The position numbers and the translations under genes were made by a program. Source: Gammaproteobacteria bacterium (lineage in GTDB: Bacteria > Gemmatimonadota > Gemmatimonadetes > Longimicrobiales > Gaopeijiaceae). From it: a DNA stretch of 64,000 bases. This document shows positions 41,589-53,577 of this stretch, in pieces. The stretch lies in contig JAPPMM010000043.1 of NCBI GenBank assembly GCA_028819075.1, positions 1 to 64,000 on the forward strand. The letters are read 5' to 3'. The stretch's first letter is position 1, and every line of letters begins with the position of its first letter. Below the pieces are notes generated by a model. The model did not search any database. It was not told the DNA's origin and worked only from the letters and a program-made list of their open reading frames with translations.

Positions 41589-43106
41589 ATGTCCTCTGCC
41601 TCCGCCACACCAGTCGCACTCGCCCCAGTTCCTCCTTCGCCCACTCCTTCCACCTCAGGCCAGCCCGCCGCGAGTCCGCTCGTCCCAACCGCGCCCGCTT
41701 CTATTACGCCCATTCCCGCCGCAGTCGCCCCTGTTGCGCCCATCTCCAAAGGGTTCAGCCCCGATCTCGATCCGCTCGGCGACGAGATCGCCCTTCTCTG
41801 CGCCCACATCACCGCCGCCACCTACCGGCTCCTCTGCCTGCTGAAGGTCTACGACGAAGAGGAACGCTGGCAGGGATTCCGCTCCTGCGCCCACTGGCTC
41901 TCCTGGCGCACCGGCATCTCGCTCGGTCCCGCCCGCGAGAAGATGCGCGTGGCCCGCTGCCTCCCCTCCCTGTCCCTGATCCCCGAAGCCTTCGCCAGGG
42001 GAGAGCTCTCGTACTCGAAGGTGCGGGCCCTGACGCGCATCGCCAACCCGGAAAACGAAGAGAAAATCCTCGACTTCGCACGCCACGGCACCACCGCGCA
42101 CGTGGAGCGCATGGTCCGGCATTGGCGCTGCCTGGACCGGGGCGACGCCTCGGAGGCCGCCCGTGCGGAGCGCCGCGGCCTCTCGGTGTGGCTCACCGAC
42201 GACGGCAGCTATGAAGTGCGGGGCCGCCTCAACCCGGAGGTGGGCGCCCTGCTCCTCAAGGCGCTCGAGGTCGCGGAAGGCCGGCTCTACCGCGCCGAGC
42301 GCAGCGCCGGGACCGAGCACCGGACCACGCCGCTACAGCGTCGAGCCGACGCCCTGGGGCTGTGGCTCGAGGAGCGCGTGCAGCCTCAGGTACAGCTCGT
42401 GATGCACTCGTTCCAAGGGGAGGAGCAGGAGAAGCGGGAGGAGCATCAGAAGCAGGAGGAGCAGGAGCAGGAAGTGTCGGCCCCGCTGGTCACCGAGGAC
42501 GGCTCGAGCGTTTCAGCTGAAACGTCTTCGCGGCTCGCATGCGATGCCGAAGTCGTGCCCATCGCGCGTGGGGCAGACGGTTCCGTGCTGGATGTCGGGC
42601 GTCGCCGGAGGACGGTGGGCTGGAGGCTGCGCAAGGCCCTCGAGGCCCGCGACGGCGGGTGCCGCTTCCCGGGATGCGACTCGCGCGCGCGCATCCACGC
42701 CCATCACATCACGCCATGGGCCGAGGGTGGAGAGACCGCGATGGACAACCTGGTGCTCCTGTGTCCGTTCCACCACCGCGCGGTCCACGAAGGGGGATGG
42801 CGGGTGGAGATGGACGAGTGGGGAGCCCCGCGCTTCCTCAAACCCCAGCGCGTTCCGCTGCCGATGGTGCCCGCCTCCCCGGACATCGGCGGCCTGGTGC
42901 CCCGCGGCGCCGCGACGGCACGTCCGATGTCTTCGCGGACTTTCCCGGTGTCGTCGGCGCAGGACTTCGGTCTGACCCGCTGGCACGGACAGGACGGCAT
43001 CGACGCCTGGACCGGGGACTCGCTGTGGACGGGCGAACGCATCGACTGGGGCTATGCGATGTTGTGCCTCTGGACGGATGGAGATGAGGTCGCGCGAGGG
43101 ACGTAG
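41589..43106 (+). CDS. DUF222 / HNH endonuclease domain protein
   Basis: This 505-residue protein has a Pro/Ala/Ser-rich start, a DUF222 domain (about 60-230: YDEEERWQGFRSCAHWLSW, GPAREKMRVARCL, FARGELSYSKVRALTRI), a Glu/Gln/Lys-rich low-complexity spacer near 275-300, and an HNH nuclease site (GCRFPGCDSRARIHAHHITP, GGETAMDNLVLLCPFHHRAVH) with all expected His, Asn and paired Cys residues. The family (13E12-like) is often multicopy and is presumed mobile or self-propagating. No intron or inverted repeats are visible around it. GGAGGAGG lies about 50 bases upstream of this ATG, too far to act as its ribosome site, so the start is uncertain. Confidence 0.88.
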   Translation: MSSASATPVALAPVPPSPTPSTSGQPAASPLVPTAPASITPIPAAVAPVAPISKGFSPDLDPLGDEIALLCAHITAATYRLLCLLKVYDEEERWQGFRSCAHWLSWRTGISLGPAREKMRVARCLPSLSLIPEAFARGELSYSKVRALTRIANPENEEKILDFARHGTTAHVERMVRHWRCLDRGDASEAARAERRGLSVWLTDDGSYEVRGRLNPEVGALLLKALEVAEGRLYRAERSAGTEHRTTPLQRRADALGLWLEERVQPQVQLVMHSFQGEEQEKREEHQKQEEQEQEVSAPLVTEDGSSVSAETSSRLACDAEVVPIARGADGSVLDVGRRRRTVGWRLRKALEARDGGCRFPGCDSRARIHAHHITPWAEGGETAMDNLVLLCPFHHRAVHEGGWRVEMDEWGAPRFLKPQRVPLPMVPASPDIGGLVPRGAATARPMSSRTFPVSSAQDFGLTRWHGQDGIDAWTGDSLWTGERIDWGYAMLCLWTDGDEVARGT

Positions 43107-43157: not shown

Positions 43158-46100
43158 TTAATGCAGGATGTTGCGTGACTTGAGATGGGCGGCTACGGCG
43201 CCAATCATCAGGGGGCGGATGCGATAGCTGCGCCAGGCTGCGTTGCCTCCCACCGCTTCCTCCACCGAAGGCTTCTCGCGGGCCGCGGTTGGGACCTTCT
43301 CGATCACCCGGCACTCTTCCAGTGACCGGAGGATGTGCAGGCTCTCGGCACTCGAGCTTCGGGCCACGTCAGAGTATTCACCGACGGTCACGGTTCCGTG
43401 CTCGAGGATGGCCTTGAGGGCGAAGCTCTGCTCCCGGTCCAGGTTCTCGATGCCCGACTCCAGCGTGCTCAGCGGCTGCACGAGGAGGCTTCCCGCAGTC
43501 GAAGCGAAGTCCGCCGAGCGCAACCAGTAGAACAGCGCCAGACGGGGAGATCCCCGGGAAACGCGGTGAAGACGCTGGAAAAAGTCGGATTCGATGAGCC
43601 CTTCCTGCTTGCCCGAGCCCCGCAGCCGTCGCGCCCGGCGCCGCAGTGTCGCTCCACGGTCGTGTGGTTCGGCGAAGCGCAGAGGAAGCCCGCTCAGCCG
43701 GTGCCGGGCCAGAACCGCCTGGCGCAACGCTTCGGGGGAAAGTTCCCCCATAGTGACCCGCTCGACGTCGTGGACGAACGCGGGGGCGCGCTTCTCGACC
43801 AGCTGCCAGGCAGTCGAGGTGACGACTGTGAGCCAGAACACCCTCGATTCGGTGCGCGACATGAAGGTCAGGAGCAGCTCGAACAGCCTGCCTCCTCCGG
43901 GCGCACGCATGTGAAGATGTTCCGTCGCCTCCAGGACGGCGAAGGAGGGAACCGACCCCGACGGCGCCTCCAGCACCCGGTCCGCGAGCGAGTCGAGGTC
44001 AGGCGCATCCCCAAGCCCCAGCCATCCGGCCACGCGCCCCGCAAGGTGCGCTTCCGTTCGCACGCGGGTGGTGAACCTCTGCCGTACTCCGCCCGGAGCC
44101 TCTTCGGCAAGGTGGCTTGTGACGACATTCAGGAAGCTGGTCACGCCAGCGCCGGGCGATGCGATGACGACGAGGGACCTGGCCTCGCCGGTGGCTCGCC
44201 GCGCCCACGCCGACGCCACCGCGGCCAGGGCGTCCTCGCGCCCCGCGAGCAACCGTGCATCCGTCAGCGGTTCCAGCGAGAAGAGGCGCCTGTAGACGAC
44301 CGGAAGCGCAGCCGGGTACTCGTCTGCGTACGCGAGGGCGTGCTCGCGGCGGTCGACGACGGTCCGGGCGGATGGACCGAGGCCCATCGTTGCGCTGAGC
44401 GGCCGAAGGAACCCCAGGGCCCACGACACGGCCGCGGCGCCGCGAGCCGCGGCCTGGCCCGACAGCCGGCGCGTCTGCTTCCATGCGCGTGCGAGCCCGG
44501 CCGACAGAACTGTGCGAGCCTCGAGATAGCCCGCCGTCATACGGTCCGCGGTCGCCTGCTCGAACAGCTGGCGCGATCCGCTGGCGATCTCGGCAGCGAC
44601 CCTGTGCTCCGCCGCTGCCAGCGCCTCGCGCAGGACTTCGCGCGCCGCGGCAGCCTTGTTGCCGGCGCGGGCGAGACCGTTGACGACCAGCGCGGCGGGA
44701 TCCGGGGCATCGGGACCGCCCCGCTCCTTCGCCTCCGCGACCGCGGCCTCGTAGCCGTATCCCGACACCTCCCGGAGCTCGACGACCTCCGAGCGAATCC
44801 GGTACATGGCTTCACGGATCGCCGAAGGCGCGGCCTGCATCCGTTCCCGGCGCAGGAGATCGAACGCGTGCAGGAAGGTCTCGCGCAGGCGCACGGTGCG
44901 GGGGTCCGACCCCGGTTTTCTCGGGGGATCTCCGGGCGCCGGAATGTCGTGAAGGGCCAGGGCCCCGGGCATTCGCTCGCGAACCTCGCCCAGACCGTGG
45001 ATCGTCTCCTCGACGGAGGCAGTCAGCGTCTCGAACACGGCACCGGGCTCCGGCAGGCCGCCCTGGATGTGCGCGAGCGCCGCATCGGTGTGCTGTCGCT
45101 CGGCCTCCAGCATCGCGACCAGATCTTCTCCGCCGGCCGAAAGGCTTGCCGCCCGCTCCCTGCCCCGGCTCAGCTCGGCCGCGACTTCAGCAAGAACCGC
45201 ATCCGCGTCGCGGATGGCATGCGACCAGTCGCCGCGCAACTCGCCGAGAATCCCCTCGATGTCACCGCGCATCGCGGCCAGACTCCGGTACAGCTCCAGC
45301 CGGGCCGCTGCGCCCTCCGCCCAGGCATCCCATCGCATGGCCAGCTCCCGCTGGCGTCCGGGGCCCGGCCGACTGGATGGCGGATCGGCTGCGAAGGTGC
45401 CGGCCACCGCAACCGAGGCGGCCAGGGATGCCTCCAGTTGCCCGAAGTCGGCGCTCCGAGCGCTCCCGGAAGCCCGTTCGACCTCGTCTACGAGCGCCTG
45501 CAGTTCGCTCTGCAGCCGCGCTCCGGCGGCGTGCCGGGTGGGCGTCTCGGCAGCCGGCGGCTCCTCCGCGACGGAGTCGGCGGAGGGTGTGGATTCATCG
45601 GCCGGGAGAGCCGGCTGCAACACGGCGGCCGCCCAGTCGGCCCACGCGCGCTCGAGGCGCCCGAGCCATTCGGCCCGGTCGTGCTGGCTCCGGCGGAAGG
45701 CGTTCGCCTGGTCGCGAAGCACCACCTGCTCGAGGTGCTGGCGGGCCAGCCGGGCCACCGGGACGCGGCGCAACCGGCCGCGCCAGACCACCGGGCCCAG
45801 CACGCGCGCGGCGGCTCGCTTGATCCAGCGTACGGGCCCAACCCCCGGAAATCTCGCGACGGGCGGACGGGCAGCCGGCGCCTGCAGCATGGCAGGCAGC
45901 TCGGCCGCCGCCGCGCGCGCATTATCCCGGGCCGAGGCCAGCGATTCTTCCAGCTCGGTGGCAGTGGCGCCGGCGGCGAGGGCGGCGCGCAGGGGCTCGA
46001 TGACCTCATCGGCGACCGCATCCCGGTATTCCGCGAGCGCCCCGGGCACATCCTGCTTTCCCTCGCCGGCACTCGCGTCCCGGCTCCCGTCACCCGCCAA

Positions 46101-46349
46101 CACCTCCCGCTCTACACGTCCGGCATTCGCATCCTCCCGCCCCTTGCCGTTCACCGCGGCGAGTGCCCGCCCGTGCGCAGCAGCCGCCTCCTCCAGCACG
46201 CGGCGGATGGGCAGCCACACGTCCGCTTCGTAGCGCCCCCAGACCTCCGCGAAGGGCTCGTGTACGGCAGCGGAGATACGGGCGGCGATGGCGGAGTCCG
46301 CGGACACGCCTTGCGCGGTCCCGGGTGTGTTGGCCGCAGGGTCGCTCAT
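43158..46349 (-). CDS. Large coiled-coil protein with degenerate STAND/AAA-like NTPase and C-terminal winged helix
   Basis: I do not recognise this 1063-residue protein as a named family. Residues 1-630 are Ala/Glu/Arg-rich, largely helical and probably coiled-coil. A hydrophobic patch lies at 637-657. From 690, LAGREDALAAVASAWARR and SLVVIASPGAGVTSFLNVV form an STAND/AAA-like core. Its Walker A is altered: the invariant lysine is V736 and the first glycine is A730. SFAVLEATEHLHM (802-814) is a Walker-B-like strand with Glu for Asp, and VFWLTVVTSTAWQL resembles a sensor strand. Residues 973-1020 look like a winged helix (ILEHGTVTVGEYSDVARSSS). Its ATG overlaps the stop of the MscS gene, so both are translationally coupled. 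Confidence 0.65.
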   Translation of the reverse strand: MSDPAANTPGTAQGVSADSAIAARISAAVHEPFAEVWGRYEADVWLPIRRVLEEAAAAHGRALAAVNGKGREDANAGRVEREVLAGDGSRDASAGEGKQDVPGALAEYRDAVADEVIEPLRAALAAGATATELEESLASARDNARAAAAELPAMLQAPAARPPVARFPGVGPVRWIKRAAARVLGPVVWRGRLRRVPVARLARQHLEQVVLRDQANAFRRSQHDRAEWLGRLERAWADWAAAVLQPALPADESTPSADSVAEEPPAAETPTRHAAGARLQSELQALVDEVERASGSARSADFGQLEASLAASVAVAGTFAADPPSSRPGPGRQRELAMRWDAWAEGAAARLELYRSLAAMRGDIEGILGELRGDWSHAIRDADAVLAEVAAELSRGRERAASLSAGGEDLVAMLEAERQHTDAALAHIQGGLPEPGAVFETLTASVEETIHGLGEVRERMPGALALHDIPAPGDPPRKPGSDPRTVRLRETFLHAFDLLRRERMQAAPSAIREAMYRIRSEVVELREVSGYGYEAAVAEAKERGGPDAPDPAALVVNGLARAGNKAAAAREVLREALAAAEHRVAAEIASGSRQLFEQATADRMTAGYLEARTVLSAGLARAWKQTRRLSGQAAARGAAAVSWALGFLRPLSATMGLGPSARTVVDRREHALAYADEYPAALPVVYRRLFSLEPLTDARLLAGREDALAAVASAWARRATGEARSLVVIASPGAGVTSFLNVVTSHLAEEAPGGVRQRFTTRVRTEAHLAGRVAGWLGLGDAPDLDSLADRVLEAPSGSVPSFAVLEATEHLHMRAPGGGRLFELLLTFMSRTESRVFWLTVVTSTAWQLVEKRAPAFVHDVERVTMGELSPEALRQAVLARHRLSGLPLRFAEPHDRGATLRRRARRLRGSGKQEGLIESDFFQRLHRVSRGSPRLALFYWLRSADFASTAGSLLVQPLSTLESGIENLDREQSFALKAILEHGTVTVGEYSDVARSSSAESLHILRSLEECRVIEKVPTAAREKPSVEEAVGGNAAWRSYRIRPLMIGAVAAHLKSRNILH

Positions 46350-47614
46350 CGCGCGTCGGGCCTACGGGAGGCAGTCGCTTCCGGCGGTTCGACCATCGGA
46401 TACCAGTCGCGCTCCGGCGTGAGCCCCGCGGCGCGGAAGCCGTCGCGGGCGCGCTCGGTGATGTCGCTCTGCATCAGGAACTCGAAGCGGGGATCCAGCA
46501 CGTAGGCCCTCACCCTCACGCGGGTGACGAAGGTGGTGCGGAACTCGTCTCCGACGAGCACCACGATGGGCTTGTTCAGGAAGACGTACCGGGAAGTCAC
46601 CGCCGCCTCGAAGGCGATCTCCCTGGCCTTGCGCTCGTCCACCCGTCCCGGCAGGTAGAGATCGGTCACGACCTGGCAGTTCAACTGCCCGGCGTTGGCG
46701 TTGGCGACCTGCTCCTCCACGACCTGGGAGTTGGGCACCGTCACCAGGTTGTCGTCGGCGGTCACGATGCGCGTCGACCTTAGCCCGATCGACACGACCT
46801 CTCCGTAGGTTCCCCCGACGGAGATCTTGTCGCCCACCTGGAAGGGCTGGTCGAAGACGACGATCAGGCCCCCGAACACGTTCTTGAGCAGGTCCTGCGC
46901 GGCGATGCCGAGCGCCAGGCCCAGGGCGGCGCTCGCCGCGAGAAGCCCCTGGGCGTCGACCCGGAAGACGGTGCGCAGGATGAGGTAGGCCGCGATCCCC
47001 CACAGCGCCATGCGCGTAATGGGGATGAGCCACTTAAATGTCAGGCGGCGCCTGACGCTCCGTTCGGCCAGCGTCTCGAGGACCCATGCCAGCGCCCGGA
47101 TCAGGAAGTGAAATACGACGATGATGACCAGCGACCAGAAGATGCCCACCCCGAGACTCCGGACTTCCTCGGTCGCCTCCTCCAGATCGAGGGCGCCGAC
47201 GGCGGTGTCGGCCGGAGCCGCAGCCACTGCGCCGCCCTGCTCCATCGCGTCCAGCCGGGATAGTATCAACTCCTGCGCCACAGTGATATCACTCAGTTGG
47301 GCGGCGAGGGAGTCGAGCGTCGCCTGGGATGGCGGAGTCTCCTGCTCGGCACCCGCCTGCGGCTGAGCACCAGCCACCGCGTCAGCCTCCGGATCCTCGG
47401 CGAGCGCCGCGCCCGGCTCCGTCTGTTGCTCCGGTGCACCCGCTTCGGCGCCAGGAACGGCAGGCTGCTCCGTCCCTGTGATCACGACCGTGCCGGACTC
47501 CGAGTCCATCGGCGAAGGATCCGCGCACGCCGCCACGACCAGCGGGACCATGATCCAGCCGGCGGCACGCAAGAGAAGGCGCGCGGCGTCGCTTTTCGCG
47601 TCTCGTTCGGGCAT
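46346..47614 (-). CDS. MscS-family mechanosensitive channel with lipoprotein-like N-terminus
   Basis: From the ATG at 47614 the product has 422 residues; a GTG at 47650 could add 12. Residues 13-30 look like a lipoprotein signal (GWIMVPLVVAAC, Cys30). An Ala/Glu/Gln-rich periplasmic segment of about 110 residues follows, then three membrane helices with the MscS pore helix (GLLAASAALGLALGIAAQDL, then LKNVFGGLIVV) and the cytoplasmic beta domain VGDKISVGGTYGEVVSIGLR. An N-terminal lipobox on an MscS channel is unusual. The gene lies 63 bases after cusA on the same strand and is coupled at its 3' end to the 1063-residue protein. Confidence 0.85.
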   Translation of the reverse strand: MPERDAKSDAARLLLRAAGWIMVPLVVAACADPSPMDSESGTVVITGTEQPAVPGAEAGAPEQQTEPGAALAEDPEADAVAGAQPQAGAEQETPPSQATLDSLAAQLSDITVAQELILSRLDAMEQGGAVAAAPADTAVGALDLEEATEEVRSLGVGIFWSLVIIVVFHFLIRALAWVLETLAERSVRRRLTFKWLIPITRMALWGIAAYLILRTVFRVDAQGLLAASAALGLALGIAAQDLLKNVFGGLIVVFDQPFQVGDKISVGGTYGEVVSIGLRSTRIVTADDNLVTVPNSQVVEEQVANANAGQLNCQVVTDLYLPGRVDERKAREIAFEAAVTSRYVFLNKPIVVLVGDEFRTTFVTRVRVRAYVLDPRFEFLMQSDITERARDGFRAAGLTPERDWYPMVEPPEATASRRPDAR

Positions 47615-47677
47615 TTGTCGGCGACGGCTCTCCGGGAAACTGCGGACCACTACATTACCCGCGCCCGCGTTGCGCGC

Positions 47678-50600
47678 CTACCCCCGCCCCTCCGGCAGCC
47701 CGCGCGCCTTCCACAGGTAGAAAACAACCGGGAAGAGCAGCAGCACCACGGCGCCCGAGGTCACGACCCCTCCGACCAGGGGCGCCGCGATCCGCTTCAT
47801 GACGTCGGCGCCCGCGCCCGCGCTCCACATGATCGGCATCAGCCCGAGCACATCGGTGGCGATGGTCATCATGATCGGCCGGACCCGCTTGATGGAGCCG
47901 CTTCGAATCGCATGCGCCAGCGCGGCGCGGTCCTTCAGCAGTCCGCGGTCGCGGTAGTCGCGCAGCGAGATGTTCAGGTAGAGCAGAAACACGATCGCGG
48001 TCTCGGCATAGAGGCCGGCCAGCGCGATGATCCCGATCCAGACCGCGATGCTGAGGTCGTAGCCGAGGATGTAGAGCAGCCAGAACGAGCCGGCGACCGC
48101 AAACGGAACGCCCAGCAGCACGAGGCAGGTCTCCGCCGCGGACCTGTTCGCCAGGTAGATCAGGACGAAGATCAGCAGGAGGGTCAGCGGAATCACGTAC
48201 ATGAGACGCCGTTCGGCGCGCTCCAGATACTCGTATTGCCCGCTCCACGCGATGGTGTATCCGGGCGGCGGAACGACCCCGGCCGCAACCGCCTCGCGCG
48301 CCGTCTCCACGTAGCCGCCGATATCGACGTCGCGCAGGTCGACGTACACCCAGGCGTTGGGCTTGGCGCCCTCGCTCTTGATGCTCGGGGGACCGACCAC
48401 GTATTCCATGCCGGCCAGCTGTCCCAGCGGCACCTGGTGACCCTGGGGCGTCGTCACCAGGACGGCGCGCAGCGCGGGCAGATCGTCCCGCAGTTCCCGG
48501 CTGTAGCGCAGGTTGACCGGATAGCGCGTGAGACCTTCGACCGTCGTCGTCACGTTCATCCCGCCGATCGCCGTCCGGATCACCTCCTGCACGTCCCTCA
48601 CGGTGAGTCCGTGGCGGGCGATCGCCTCGCGGTCGATGGAGAAGTCGAGGTAGTTGCCGCCCATCACCCGGTCCGCGTACACGCTGGCGGTCCCGGGAAC
48701 GCCGCGCAGCACATCCTCGATCTCCCGCCCCAGCCTCTCCAGCTCGGTCAGATCGGGACCCGCGATCTTGATGCCCACGGGCGTGCGGATTCCGGTCGAG
48801 AGCATGTCGATCCGGCTCCGGATGGGCATGGTCCAGGCGTTGGTGAGCCCCGGAATGCGGAGGGCCGCGTCGAGCTCCTCGATGAGCCTCTCGGGCGTCA
48901 TCCCCTGCCGCCACTGGTCGCGGGGCTTCAGCGCGATGGTGGTCTCGAGCATGGACAGGGGCGCGGGATCTGTTGCCGTTTCCGCCCGCCCGACCTTGCC
49001 GAAGACGTGCTGGACTTCGGGAAAGGTGTAGATGATGCGGTCCGTCTGCTGCAGGATCTCGCGCGCCTCGGTGATGGAGACTCCGGGGAGAGTGGTGGGC
49101 ATGTAGAGCAGGTCGCCTTCCCACAGCGGCGGCATGAACTCCGACCCCAGACGCGACAGCGGCACGATGGTCGCAGTCAGTCCGAGCACGGCGGCGGCGA
49201 GGACCCAGGTCCGGAAACGCAGCACGAACCCGAGAACCGGCCAGTACGTTCGTGCCAGCTGCCGTCCGAGCGGGGTGCTCGATGGCCGGCGGATCCTCCC
49301 GCGCACCCAGTAGCCCACCAGCACCGGAACGAGCGTCACCGACAGGAGCGCAGCGGACGCCATCGCGTAGGTCTTGGTGAAGGCGAGCGGCTTGAACAGC
49401 CGCCCCTCCTGCGCCTCGAGGGTGAAGACCGGCATGAACGACACGGTGATCACCAGGAGCGCCACGAACAGCGACGGGCCCACCTCGCGCGCCGCCGAGG
49501 CGACGATCTCCCAGTGCGGCCTCCGGCCCCCGTCGCGGGCGAGGTGCTTGTGGGCGTTCTCGACCATCACGATCCCTGCGTCCACCATCGTTCCGATCGC
49601 GACCGCGATCCCGCCCAGGGACATGATGTTGAGCGTCAGCCCCTGCATCCGCACCACGATCAGCGCCATCAGGATCCCCACCGGCAGCGCGATGACGGCC
49701 ACGAGGCCGCTGCGCAGGTGGAACAGGAAGACGAGGCACACCAGGCCCACGATCGCGAGCTGCTGCGCGAGGCTCATGCGGATGCTCCCGACCGCCCGGT
49801 CGATCAGTGCGCTCCGGTCGTAGGCCACTTCGATCTCGACGCCCTCCGGCAGTCCCGGCGTGATCTCCGCAAGCTTGTCCTTCACGTCCCGGATCACCCG
49901 CCGCGTGTCCGCGCCGGACCGCACCACGACGATGCCGCCGACCGTCTCCCCTTCCCCGTTCCACTCCGCGAGGCCGCGGCGGCCCTCCGGTCCCAGGCTC
50001 ACGCGCGCCACGTCCTCGAGCAGGATCGGCGTCCCGTCGGCGCTCACGCCGAGACCGATCCGGCGAATGTCGTCCACCGACCGGATGTAGCCGAGGCCGC
50101 GAATCATGAACTCCCGCTCGGCGACCTCGATGAGGCCGCCCCCGACATCGCTGTTGCTCTCCTGGATGGCGGAGCGGATGGCCGAGATGGACAGGTCGTA
50201 GGCGCGCAGCCGGTTCGGATCGACCGTGATCTGGTACTGGCGCACGAACCCGCCCACGCTCGCCACTTCCGAGACCCCGGGCACCGCGGTCAGCTCATAC
50301 CTGAGGAACCAGTCCTGGATCGAGCGCAGCTCCCCAAGGTCGTGGCGGTCGGACCGGAGCGCGTACACGAAGGCCCAGCCGACTCCGGTGGCATCGGGTC
50401 CGAGCCTGGGCGTGATACCCGGCGGGAGCTGCTCGGAGAGGGAGTTCAGGTACTCCAGAACCCGGCTTCTGGCCCAGTAGAGGTCGGTTCCCTCCTCGAA
50501 GATCACGTACACGAACGACACCCCGAAGAACGAATAGCCGCGCACCACCTGGGCGAACGGCGCCGCCAGCATCTGGGTGGCGACGGGGTAGGTGACCTGA

Positions 50601-50788
50601 TCCTCGACGATGCGCGGGGCCTGGCCGGGATACTCGGTCTGGATGATGACCTGCACGTCCGAGAGATCCGGAATGGCGTCGATGGGGGTGCGGGACAGCG
50701 AGAAGACGCCCGCCAGCACGACGGCGAGGGCGCCGACGAGGATCAGGGGCCGGTTCCTGATGGAGCCGTTGATGATGCGCGCGAGCAT
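47678..50788 (-). CDS. cusA: Copper/silver RND efflux pump CusA
   Basis: This 1036-residue inner-membrane pump has GGAGGT six bases before its ATG. Similarity to CusA is strong throughout: the TM4 segment AVAIGTMVDAGIVMVENAHK, the periplasmic YMPTTLPGVS, VFGKVGRAETATDPAPL, TTIALKPRDQWRQGMTPE and RIDMLSTGIRTPVGIKIAG. The methionines in YMPTTLPG and RIDMLSTG coincide with CusA Cu(I)/Ag(I) ligand positions. It exports Cu(I) and Ag(I) from periplasm and cytoplasm through CusB and CusC, whose genes lie upstream in the same operon. Confidence 0.95.
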   Translation of the reverse strand: MLARIINGSIRNRPLILVGALAVVLAGVFSLSRTPIDAIPDLSDVQVIIQTEYPGQAPRIVEDQVTYPVATQMLAAPFAQVVRGYSFFGVSFVYVIFEEGTDLYWARSRVLEYLNSLSEQLPPGITPRLGPDATGVGWAFVYALRSDRHDLGELRSIQDWFLRYELTAVPGVSEVASVGGFVRQYQITVDPNRLRAYDLSISAIRSAIQESNSDVGGGLIEVAEREFMIRGLGYIRSVDDIRRIGLGVSADGTPILLEDVARVSLGPEGRRGLAEWNGEGETVGGIVVVRSGADTRRVIRDVKDKLAEITPGLPEGVEIEVAYDRSALIDRAVGSIRMSLAQQLAIVGLVCLVFLFHLRSGLVAVIALPVGILMALIVVRMQGLTLNIMSLGGIAVAIGTMVDAGIVMVENAHKHLARDGGRRPHWEIVASAAREVGPSLFVALLVITVSFMPVFTLEAQEGRLFKPLAFTKTYAMASAALLSVTLVPVLVGYWVRGRIRRPSSTPLGRQLARTYWPVLGFVLRFRTWVLAAAVLGLTATIVPLSRLGSEFMPPLWEGDLLYMPTTLPGVSITEAREILQQTDRIIYTFPEVQHVFGKVGRAETATDPAPLSMLETTIALKPRDQWRQGMTPERLIEELDAALRIPGLTNAWTMPIRSRIDMLSTGIRTPVGIKIAGPDLTELERLGREIEDVLRGVPGTASVYADRVMGGNYLDFSIDREAIARHGLTVRDVQEVIRTAIGGMNVTTTVEGLTRYPVNLRYSRELRDDLPALRAVLVTTPQGHQVPLGQLAGMEYVVGPPSIKSEGAKPNAWVYVDLRDVDIGGYVETAREAVAAGVVPPPGYTIAWSGQYEYLERAERRLMYVIPLTLLLIFVLIYLANRSAAETCLVLLGVPFAVAGSFWLLYILGYDLSIAVWIGIIALAGLYAETAIVFLLYLNISLRDYRDRGLLKDRAALAHAIRSGSIKRVRPIMMTIATDVLGLMPIMWSAGAGADVMKRIAAPLVGGVVTSGAVVLLLFPVVFYLWKARGLPEGRG

Positions 50789-50800
50789 GAGGGACCTCCG

Positions 50801-52237
50801 TCAGCGGCCGGGCGGCATGCCGGAGGCCGCGCCGGGCATCGCCCCAGGCGGCCCGGGCATCTCGCCGTGCTCCATCTCGCCGTGCTGCATCTCGCCGTCC
50901 GCAGCAGGCTGCCCGGTTTCCGCGCCGCTCAAGAGCTGCGAGATGGCGGCCTTGAGGTTGGCGTCGGCGTCGATGAGGAACTGGGACGAGACGAGGACCT
51001 GCTCACCCGGGGTCAGCCCGGACGTCACCTCCTGCATGCCCTCGCTCTCGGTTCCGAGCAAGACCTCGCGGGGCTCGAACACGCCCTCGCCCCTGGCCAC
51101 GATCACCACCGCGCGGGTTCCGCTGTGCAGCACCGCCTCGGCCGCCACCATCACCGCGTCGGAAGCGCCGCTGGCCCGCGCCGTCACGTCGACGTACATC
51201 CCGGGCCGGAGCCGCAGGTCGGCGTTGGCCACCTCCACGAACGCCGTGAGCGTCCGAGTCTGCGTATTCACCGCGGGACGAAAGAAGAGGATGCGCCCGT
51301 CCCAGCGGCGGTCGGGAAACGCGTCCGCCTCGATCTCCACGGCCTCGCCTTCGCCCACATGCCTGAGATCGTCCTCGTAGAACTCGGTCTCGGCCCAGAG
51401 CGTGGAGTGGTCTGCGATCTTCAGGACCGTCATTCCGGGCGAGATCCGCAACCCTTCCATCGAGTCGCCCATCTTCTCGACGATGAAGCCGGTGGCGGGC
51501 GAGAAGACCCGGACCGTGCGCGCGACCGCCCCCGACTCGGCGAGCGCGTCGATCTGCGCCTCGGTCATGTCCCAGTACAGCAGGCGCTCCCGGGTCGCCT
51601 CCAGGAGGGACTGCGCGCGCTCGATGGCTTCCGGATAGGCTCCGCCGTCCCGCAGGCGCCCGACGTACTCCATCGCCCCGACGAACTCGCGCTGTGTCGA
51701 GACCAGTTCCGGGCTGTAGATCTCGAAGAGCACGTCGCCCCTCGCGACCGTCTCGCCCACGTTGTTCACGCTGGCCTGCTCGATCCAGCCCTCGTACTTG
51801 GTCTGGACCGAGACCACCCGCTCCTCGTTGTGCGCCAGGATGCCGACCGTGCGGATGAGGACGGGGAGCGAGCCGCGATGAACCTCGGCCGTGCGAACGG
51901 CAAAGTTCTGCAGGAAGCTCGGACTCACCCGGACCTGACCGTCCGCGAGACCCTCGTCCGCATAGACCGGAACCAGCTCCATCCCCATCGGGGACCTGCC
52001 CGGGCGGTCGGAGGTGTAGTTCGGATCCATCGGTGCTCGCCAGTACAGGATCCTGCGTTCGCCCGCGGGCGCGGCCTGTCCTCCGGGCGCGAGGGCTCCG
52101 CTTTCGCCGGCTCCGGCCTGCGCCTCGTTCATCGGCTCCCCGGGCAAGATGCGCATCAGCAGCAACGCACCGCCGGCGCCAATCGCGACGCCCAGCGCCA
52201 CGACTGCGGTCAGCTGAAGTCTCTTCGTGTTCCTCAT
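50801..52237 (-). CDS. cusB: CusB-type periplasmic adaptor with Met/His-rich tail
   Basis: This 478-residue adaptor has an N-terminal membrane anchor (LTAVVALGVAIGAGGALLLM) and then the heavy-metal-binding segment ILYWRAPMDPNYTSDRPG followed by SPMGMELVPVY, typical of CusB proteins. The core contains the barrel-sandwich halves (TKYEGWIEQASVNNVGETV; VFSPATGFIVEKMGDSMEGL). The last 30 residues are a Met/His-rich tail with three GEM units (GEMQHGEMEHGEMPG), a likely extra Cu(I)/Ag(I) site. It is 12 bases before cusA and its start overlaps the cusC stop. Confidence 0.94.
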   Translation of the reverse strand: MRNTKRLQLTAVVALGVAIGAGGALLLMRILPGEPMNEAQAGAGESGALAPGGQAAPAGERRILYWRAPMDPNYTSDRPGRSPMGMELVPVYADEGLADGQVRVSPSFLQNFAVRTAEVHRGSLPVLIRTVGILAHNEERVVSVQTKYEGWIEQASVNNVGETVARGDVLFEIYSPELVSTQREFVGAMEYVGRLRDGGAYPEAIERAQSLLEATRERLLYWDMTEAQIDALAESGAVARTVRVFSPATGFIVEKMGDSMEGLRISPGMTVLKIADHSTLWAETEFYEDDLRHVGEGEAVEIEADAFPDRRWDGRILFFRPAVNTQTRTLTAFVEVANADLRLRPGMYVDVTARASGASDAVMVAAEAVLHSGTRAVVIVARGEGVFEPREVLLGTESEGMQEVTSGLTPGEQVLVSSQFLIDADANLKAAISQLLSGAETGQPAADGEMQHGEMEHGEMPGPPGAMPGAASGMPPGR

Positions 52238-53577
52238 GATCCCTCCTCGCCCGGAGATGACGGTTCCTCCTCCGGAAAGGCCGAGCCGATGGCTCGTTCC
52301 ATGTCGGCCAGCGCCTTCATGTAGTCGGCGCGTATGCGCGCGAGGCCCAGACGGACGTCCAGCAGGACCGCCTCGCTGTCCAGCAACTCGAGCACGCCCG
52401 TGACTCCGGCCGAATACGCCTCCTCGGTGGCGCGCAGGGCCTGCTCCGCCTGCGGGACCAGCGCGCGCTCGAAGAGGGCCAGCTGCCCTTCGATGGTGGT
52501 CAGGCGGAACGCGGTCGAACGGACAGCGAGCGCCACCCCGTTTACCGCGTCCCGGTACGCTTCCTCGGCCGCGGTGAGGCGCGCGGCAGCCTCGCGCATG
52601 CCCGCGTCGTAGCTGGACCTGAAAACCGGAATGCTCGCGCCGAGGGTGAGACTGTAGGTGTCGCGCCCGTTGTCCGGGGGCGGGTCGTTGCGGCCCGCGT
52701 CGTCGCGCCGGTCGAGAACGCTGCCCCAGGCGAGGCCGACGGAGAAGTCGGGCCGGTAGCGTCGACCTGCGAGGCGGACGGCCCGTTCGTTGCTCTCGAT
52801 CCGCAGCCGGGCCGACCTCACCTCCGGCCTGGCGCCGAGCCCGGCTGCCCGCAACCGCTCATCGTCAATGTTGGCAGGCGGACGTTCCCCCACCTCGATC
52901 ATAGGGATGGGGGCGTCCACGGGCCGATTGGCGAGGATGTTGAGCGTGGCCTCGAAATCGGTCCGCTGCTGCAGGAGTTCCTGCCGGCGGCTCAGGACAC
53001 GCGTGACTTCCGCCTGAAGTTTGAGAACGGCCTGCTGCTGCCCGAAGCCCTGCGAGTAACGCGCCTGGGCGAGGGCCTCGTAGTGGAGGAGGAGCTGCTC
53101 TTCCTCTCCGGTGATGCGGAGCGCTTCATCCAGGTAGGCGAGGTCGTAGTAGGCCAGCTTTACCTGCCGCACCACTTCGGCCGCCTGCCGCCTGTAGGTC
53201 TCCCCGCGACTCTCGGCCTCGGCCTCGGCGATGTCCCTTCGGTCCGACAGCGTCCCGAACCAGGGGAATGCCTGGCTGAGCGACACGCCGGAGGTCTGCG
53301 GCCCGACCCGGGTCTGGGGCCCCCGCAGGTGCTGGGTGAAGGCGACCATCGGATTCGGGAGGGTCCCCGCCTGCGGGACGCGGGCGCGCGCGGCCTGCAC
53401 GTCCGAGAGTGCTCCGCGTACACGCGGATTGCCCTCCAGCGCTTCCGCGATGAGCGCGGCCAGCGTGGGATCGCCGTTGTTCGCATAGGCCGGCGTCTGC
53501 GCCGTGACGCCCGCCGGTCCCAGGGGATCCGAGAGTGCGATCGCCAGCGCGACCGCCAGGATCCGCTTGATAGACAT
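52234..53577 (-). CDS. cusC: CusC-like TolC-family outer-membrane channel
   Basis: This 447-residue protein has a signal peptide (RILAVALAIALSDPLGPAGV) and two TolC-type repeats, with LIAEALEGNPRVRGALSDV, SLSQAFPWFGTLSDRRDIAE and YSAGVTGVLELLDSEAVLLD as recognisable blocks. GAGG lies five bases before the ATG. It forms the outer-membrane exit of the CusCBA system; its stop overlaps the cusB start. Confidence 0.9.
   Translation of the reverse strand: MSIKRILAVALAIALSDPLGPAGVTAQTPAYANNGDPTLAALIAEALEGNPRVRGALSDVQAARARVPQAGTLPNPMVAFTQHLRGPQTRVGPQTSGVSLSQAFPWFGTLSDRRDIAEAEAESRGETYRRQAAEVVRQVKLAYYDLAYLDEALRITGEEEQLLLHYEALAQARYSQGFGQQQAVLKLQAEVTRVLSRRQELLQQRTDFEATLNILANRPVDAPIPMIEVGERPPANIDDERLRAAGLGARPEVRSARLRIESNERAVRLAGRRYRPDFSVGLAWGSVLDRRDDAGRNDPPPDNGRDTYSLTLGASIPVFRSSYDAGMREAAARLTAAEEAYRDAVNGVALAVRSTAFRLTTIEGQLALFERALVPQAEQALRATEEAYSAGVTGVLELLDSEAVLLDVRLGLARIRADYMKALADMERAIGSAFPEEEPSSPGEEGS

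Follow-up and report, generated by a model that had tools for sequence, protein, structure and literature searches.

In the genome of a Candidatus Palauibacter (Gemmatimonadota), the 64,000-nucleotide stretch of DNA analysed here (the window) carries an MscS-family channel gene whose stop codon overlaps the start of a gene for a large helical AAA+ protein. This partner gene abuts one dedicated MscS subfamily in 86 of 86 loci with readable flanks, in either gene order. We consider it probable that the two genes form a module dedicated to ion flux, in which a cytosolic AAA+ protein acts on an inner-membrane MscS channel. The 86 loci are the non-SLC12 loci with a sufficiently long contig, and they comprise 59 in which the channel gene comes first and 27 in which the ATPase gene comes first; the homologues that stand without an MscS gene are all SLC12-like fusions, so that the linkage claimed in a preliminary description of this DNA recurs in other genomes. 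Homologues of the partner occur in Gemmatimonadota, Rhodothermia (including Rhodothermales) and Acidobacteriota. An orthologue is present in all other searched genomes of the species and genus of the window and of a second genus (g25), and the distribution elsewhere in the order and class is patchy.

The partner and the MscS subfamily, which was delimited at E 1e-40 such that MscS paralogues of the same genome fall outside, are associated across genomes as well as within loci. Both were found in 45 of 154 genomes of the window's order, with 4 genomes having the AAA gene only (contig ends), 1 the MscS gene only (a truncated contig that still bears the partner start) and 104 neither. The corresponding numbers are 83, 2, 3 and 108 for 196 Rhodothermia genomes and 11, 2, 0 and 284 for 297 Acidobacteriota genomes; of the two AAA-only Acidobacteriota, one is flanked by an MscS gene that misses the cut and the other has an SLC12-like fusion. 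Fisher tests that ignore relatedness give p <= 3e-18. The distances of MscS and partner are correlated (r 0.90 overall and 0.88 in the non-redundant channel-first set, shared ancestry being ignored), to which common descent contributes. No third gene was conserved across the loci beyond subclades: AAA and MscS alone recur, and any further ORFs seen repeatedly are local neighbours or frames antisense to GC-rich genes. The Balneolales-type loci L249-L251, L254 and L255 have a secreted or lipoprotein peptidase-like gene (~550 aa, HEVAHG motif) after MscS, and several of them an N-acetylmuramoyl-alanine-amidase-like gene upstream.

Both genes of the window pair lie on the minus strand. The channel gene (46346..47614) encodes 422 aa from an ATG at 47614, which is the start kept in same-genus relatives, a GTG at 47650 being a possible alternative. 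The partner gene (43158..46349) encodes the 1063 aa given in the preliminary description. The coupling proposed there is seen as an ATGA overlap at 46346..46349, in which the TGA that ends MscS (46348-46346) shares bases with the ATG of the partner (46349-46347), and a 4-base xTGA overlap is found in the majority of Gemmatimonadota loci and in one Rhodothermales locus. The two proteins are probably made together. Ahead of the pair and on the same strand lies a CusCBA-like RND efflux operon (OMF, MFP and RND genes, 47678-53577), which leads into the MscS gene, the RND stop and the MscS ATG being 63 bases apart; as this arrangement is conserved inside the genus only, co-transcription of the pair with the metal-efflux genes is a possibility here. 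A DUF222/HNH endonuclease gene (41589-43106, plus strand) is convergent with the partner gene in most same-genus genomes, and in the neighbourhoods compared both the RND and the HNH genes are absent outside the genus. Long open frames on the plus strand opposite the pair (43335-46505) and opposite the RND gene (47297-52324) are ascribed to the composition of GC-rich coding DNA. Several of the Palauibacter-related genome records L103-L106 are labelled Gammaproteobacteria.

The channel is a clear member of the MscS family (PF00924, E 8e-22, 77.5 bits against a cut-off of 20.2), with the Pfam match to the pore and beta domain at 46694..46894 (minus strand). Profiles match the structures of MscM, MscK, YnaI and MscS, the PDB MscS/MscM matches spanning the membrane helices into the cytosolic domain, and the pore-lining TM3 and the cytosolic alpha/beta domain align throughout the subfamily. 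With E. coli MscS, YnaI, MscK and MscM (PDB 2oau, 7uw5, 11so) the window channel shares the pore helix, the beta domain, three membrane helices and an N-terminus outside, but it belongs to a distinct subfamily and, unlike these channels, has an obligate AAA+ gene partner; to our knowledge none of MscS, YnaI, MscK and MscM has one. The window genome holds three MscS genes, of which only the one in the window falls in the partnered subfamily. Within the genus the channel core is under stronger purifying selection (omega 0.10-0.13) than the AAA core of the partner.

The N-terminus of the channel bears the lipoprotein-like signal that had been noticed earlier (47525..47614, minus strand): the lipobox VVAAC fits the PROSITE-type pattern and ends at Cys30 counted from the ATG (codon 47527-47525), where lipidation is predicted. 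A lipobox after a hydrophobic stretch is found in 44/59 channel-first loci versus 1/27 ATPase-first loci, and this predicted signal characterises the channel-first clade. Between the lipobox and the first membrane helix lies an Ala/Glu/Gln/Pro-rich segment of ~120 aa (47165..47524, minus strand), predicted to be periplasmic. The long Ala/Glu/Gln segment that had been reported ahead of the pore is thus real, though poorly conserved (omega 0.32-0.46), and it is missing from the Acidobacteriota MscS. It is the lipobox and this long periplasmic segment that mark the channel-first clade within the subfamily. Judged from the sequence, lipobox and three membrane helices together would place the N-terminal side of the channel in the periplasm and its cage in the cytosol.

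The partner is far less easily classified. Its sole Pfam match is a sub-threshold one to AAA_16, no NCBIfam or PADLOC family matches it, a phmmer search of the PDB found no sequence relatives, and profile matches to PDB entries were at chance level only; similarity to ClpB/Hsp104 profiles and to nSTAND1 and AAA_16 is weak. An AlphaFold2 model built from 47 homologues (pLDDT 80.9) has helices from residue ~18 to 654, followed by an alpha/beta P-loop domain, a lid and a winged helix. The N-terminal part (residues 18-660; 44370..46298, minus strand; pLDDT 81.6 and pTM 0.75 when modelled alone) is predicted to be an array in which long helices run antiparallel, with two small beta-hairpins. Of the giant coiled-coil protein in the preliminary description, the long helical stretch stands, at ~640 residues, and the single coiled coil gives way to a helical-bundle array. 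No structural relative of this array was found in the PDB (best Foldseek E 0.15), and internal duplication of the region was rejected (hhalign probability 19%). Partner versions of ~450 aa at L252-L254 consist of the AAA core and the winged helix without most of the helical array, and still adjoin MscS.

The core and lid (residues 683-965; 43455..44303, minus strand) are predicted to form an AAA+/STAND-like P-loop fold, in agreement with the P-loop previously assigned to residues 700-960. The best Foldseek match is Cdc6/Orc1 (2qby, E 7e-6), with further matches to ORC, RFC and TnsC and lower ones to an NLR resistosome; target-normalised TM-scores for the ORC and RFC matches, mostly 0.3-0.5, indicate similarity at the level of the fold. 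A C-terminal winged helix (residues 970-1058; 43176..43442, minus strand) is supported both by the model and by an ORC/Cdc6 alignment that covers it, and is followed by a conserved NILH motif (43161..43172, minus strand; RNILH or RNLL in relatives). One same-genus genome has a stand-alone 114-residue copy of the winged-helix region ~5 kb downstream (L028, 16529-16897, plus strand). Alignment bears out the earlier reading of the Walker motifs: Walker A is degenerate (SPGAGVTS, 44136..44159, minus strand, in the context ASPGAGVTS), with Val736 in place of the lysine (codon 44144-44142) and no match to the GxxxxGK[ST] pattern, and the Walker B strand (43929..43943, minus strand) ends in Glu807. 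Walker B of the window partner carries E807/E810, and Glu or Asp is found there in 47/47 aligned sequences. The P-loop core, lid and C-terminal winged helix are thus common to the partner and to the ORC/Cdc6 and clamp-loader AAA+ proteins (2qby, RFC), from which it differs in its ~640-residue helical N-terminal array and in that its genes accompany channels and transporters rather than DNA replication.

The loss of the lysine follows the order of the genes. At channel-first loci lysine occupies the Walker position in 0/59, the residue being V, I, R, L, T, M, H or A, with one gap; at ATPase-first loci the GSGK[ST] lysine is present in 26/27 readable sequences, the exception being L257 with R. 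L091, which resembles an ATPase-first locus with Val, was left out as a fragment at a contig end whose MscS neighbour is unrelated (52 bits). On a core tree computed without the Walker columns the channel-first loci group as a single clade (SH-aLRT 100), which means that the change of gene order and that of the lysine coincided in one event. The tree thus offers no independent repeats of lysine loss, and the link between order change and lysine loss lacks replication. Within the genus the AAA core remains under purifying selection (omega 0.23-0.28) despite the loss. The disabled NTPase site of the preliminary description accordingly holds as regards the missing lysine, but applies to the channel-first clade and not to the ATPase-first loci, which keep GSGK[ST]; the partner of the channel-first clade is most likely non-hydrolysing, as its Walker A suggests, and most likely serves as an assembly or adaptor subunit. 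Degenerate AAA+ subunits are common in ORC and clamp loaders, where they play such a part.

More distant relatives of the AAA+ core are fused to membrane transporters. Three Acidobacteriota proteins of ~1500 aa combine a CPA-type Na+/H+-exchanger domain (PF00999, E 3e-17 to 2e-21) with the helical-AAA part, and an MscS gene follows each directly (L212, 5991-10472, minus strand; L213, 6221-10744, minus strand; L214, 3282-7649, plus strand). In Gemmatimonadota, Rhodothermia and Acidobacteriota, proteins of ~1700 aa carry an AA_permease/SLC12-like domain (E about 1e-48) and a homologous core with Walker GK[ST], and have no partnered MscS neighbour (L100, 2626-7896, plus; L102, 1791-6854, minus; L216, 6290-11428, minus; L247, 170-5419, plus; L248, 5580-10643, minus). 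The AAA+ core is common to the partner and to the CPA- and SLC12-fused proteins, and the helical array of these fused proteins is weakly similar. The fusions argue for a cytosolic module that serves ion transport, and they speak against a role in defence or in transcription control. Since the partner has no signal or membrane helix, and the fused relatives put the module behind the last membrane helix, it would be cytosolic.

The protein most likely works in the cytosol as an AAA+ companion of ion channels and transporters, tuning flux in osmotic or ionic stress. For the MscS-AAA+ pair we infer physical contact, an oligomer, an effect on gating and a stimulus. The AAA+ protein would probably assemble through its ORC-like core, make contact with the channel or the membrane by way of its long helical N-terminal array and, under osmotic or ionic stress, determine the moment or the extent of channel opening. 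The switch would be ATP binding and hydrolysis in the ancestral, ATPase-first form; in the channel-first clade the partner would be structural, a non-hydrolysing assembly or adaptor subunit. It is also conceivable, and we put it forward tentatively, that one helical-AAA+ module governs ion content through three unrelated transport superfamilies, namely MscS as an operon partner and CPA and SLC12-like transporters as a fusion, having become the non-hydrolysing subunit of a lipid-anchored channel in Gemmatimonadota and Rhodothermales.

Among other explanations, a chaperone-like AAA+ factor for the assembly or insertion of the channel, and not a regulator of open channels, would fit the strict one-to-one pairing, the overlapping genes, the AAA+ fold and the weak ClpB/Hsp104 profile similarity; we regard it as unlikely, because the hydrolysis lysine is lost in the largest clade and, as far as we know, other MscS channels need no factor of this kind. 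A mere accident of operon structure, with no joint function, could be read from the position of the pair behind a same-strand RND efflux operon in this genus, but is hardly credible when the RND genes are not kept beyond the genus, the pair is kept in two orders and three phyla, and adjacency in 86/86 loci and the co-occurrence samples contradict it.

The winged helix might also suggest a DNA-binding regulator that reads an operator of the channel gene, all the more as known ORC/Cdc6-like members bind DNA. Such a domain is normal in ORC and STAND ATPases, however, and promoter binding is improbable for cores fused behind antiporter or SLC12-like membrane domains, which makes this explanation very unlikely. 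We give equally little credence to a STAND-type anti-phage or suicide system, in which the AAA protein would sense invasion and open the MscS pore such that the cell dies. The fold similarity does include NLR resistosomes, the helical region is large and a membrane pore is a possible effector; against this, the pair is in every searched genome of two genera, homologues on plasmids or phages were not found, PADLOC has no match for the window proteins and weak ATPase-level matches only for relatives, channel and partner diverge in parallel, the core is fused to CPA and SLC12-like transporters, and the switch lysine is lost throughout one clade. An inactive NTPase core does occur in iSTAND systems (Kaur et al., 2020, PMC7159879), and relatives of the partner show weak nSTAND1 and AAA_16 similarity. 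The partner loci differ from nSTAND1/iSTAND NTPases in having no recurring vWA, MoxR or effector-domain genes and an MscS channel as neighbour; an iSTAND ternary conflict system was rejected, the vWA and MoxR partner genes being missing and only AAA and MscS recurring. The term "MscS" is absent from the text of PMC7159879.

A functional parallel to our preferred reading, a cytosolic module acting on ion flux, may be the KCC/SLC12 cotransporters, for which PMC8280820 describes a regulatory nucleotide-binding cytoplasmic domain. These are ion transporters controlled via cytoplasmic parts and linked to cell volume, and some of the distant relatives found here have an SLC12-like membrane domain; by comparison, the modules reported here are bacterial and their cytoplasmic part also has an AAA+ domain. 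Searches of the open-access full-text literature gave no description of an MscS-AAA pair. Together with the lack of a Pfam, NCBIfam or PADLOC family for the partner, this agrees with the suggestion that the system was undescribed. The parts belong to known superfamilies; the claim of newness concerns their combination, in which one MscS subfamily and two transporter superfamilies have an obligate AAA+ partner in common.

MscS channels are usually seen as self-sufficient tension valves. A partner kept beside an MscS subfamily, and its transporter-fused cores, suggest that a shared AAA+ machine governs channels and transporters in some bacteria; if such a general governor of ion flux is real, mechanosensitive channels would have in it their first dedicated NTPase partner. 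One clade has kept the ATPase site and the other has lost it with the protein still under selection, a natural experiment that makes the role of ATP directly testable. The pair points to a previously unrecognised control of ion flow in cells.
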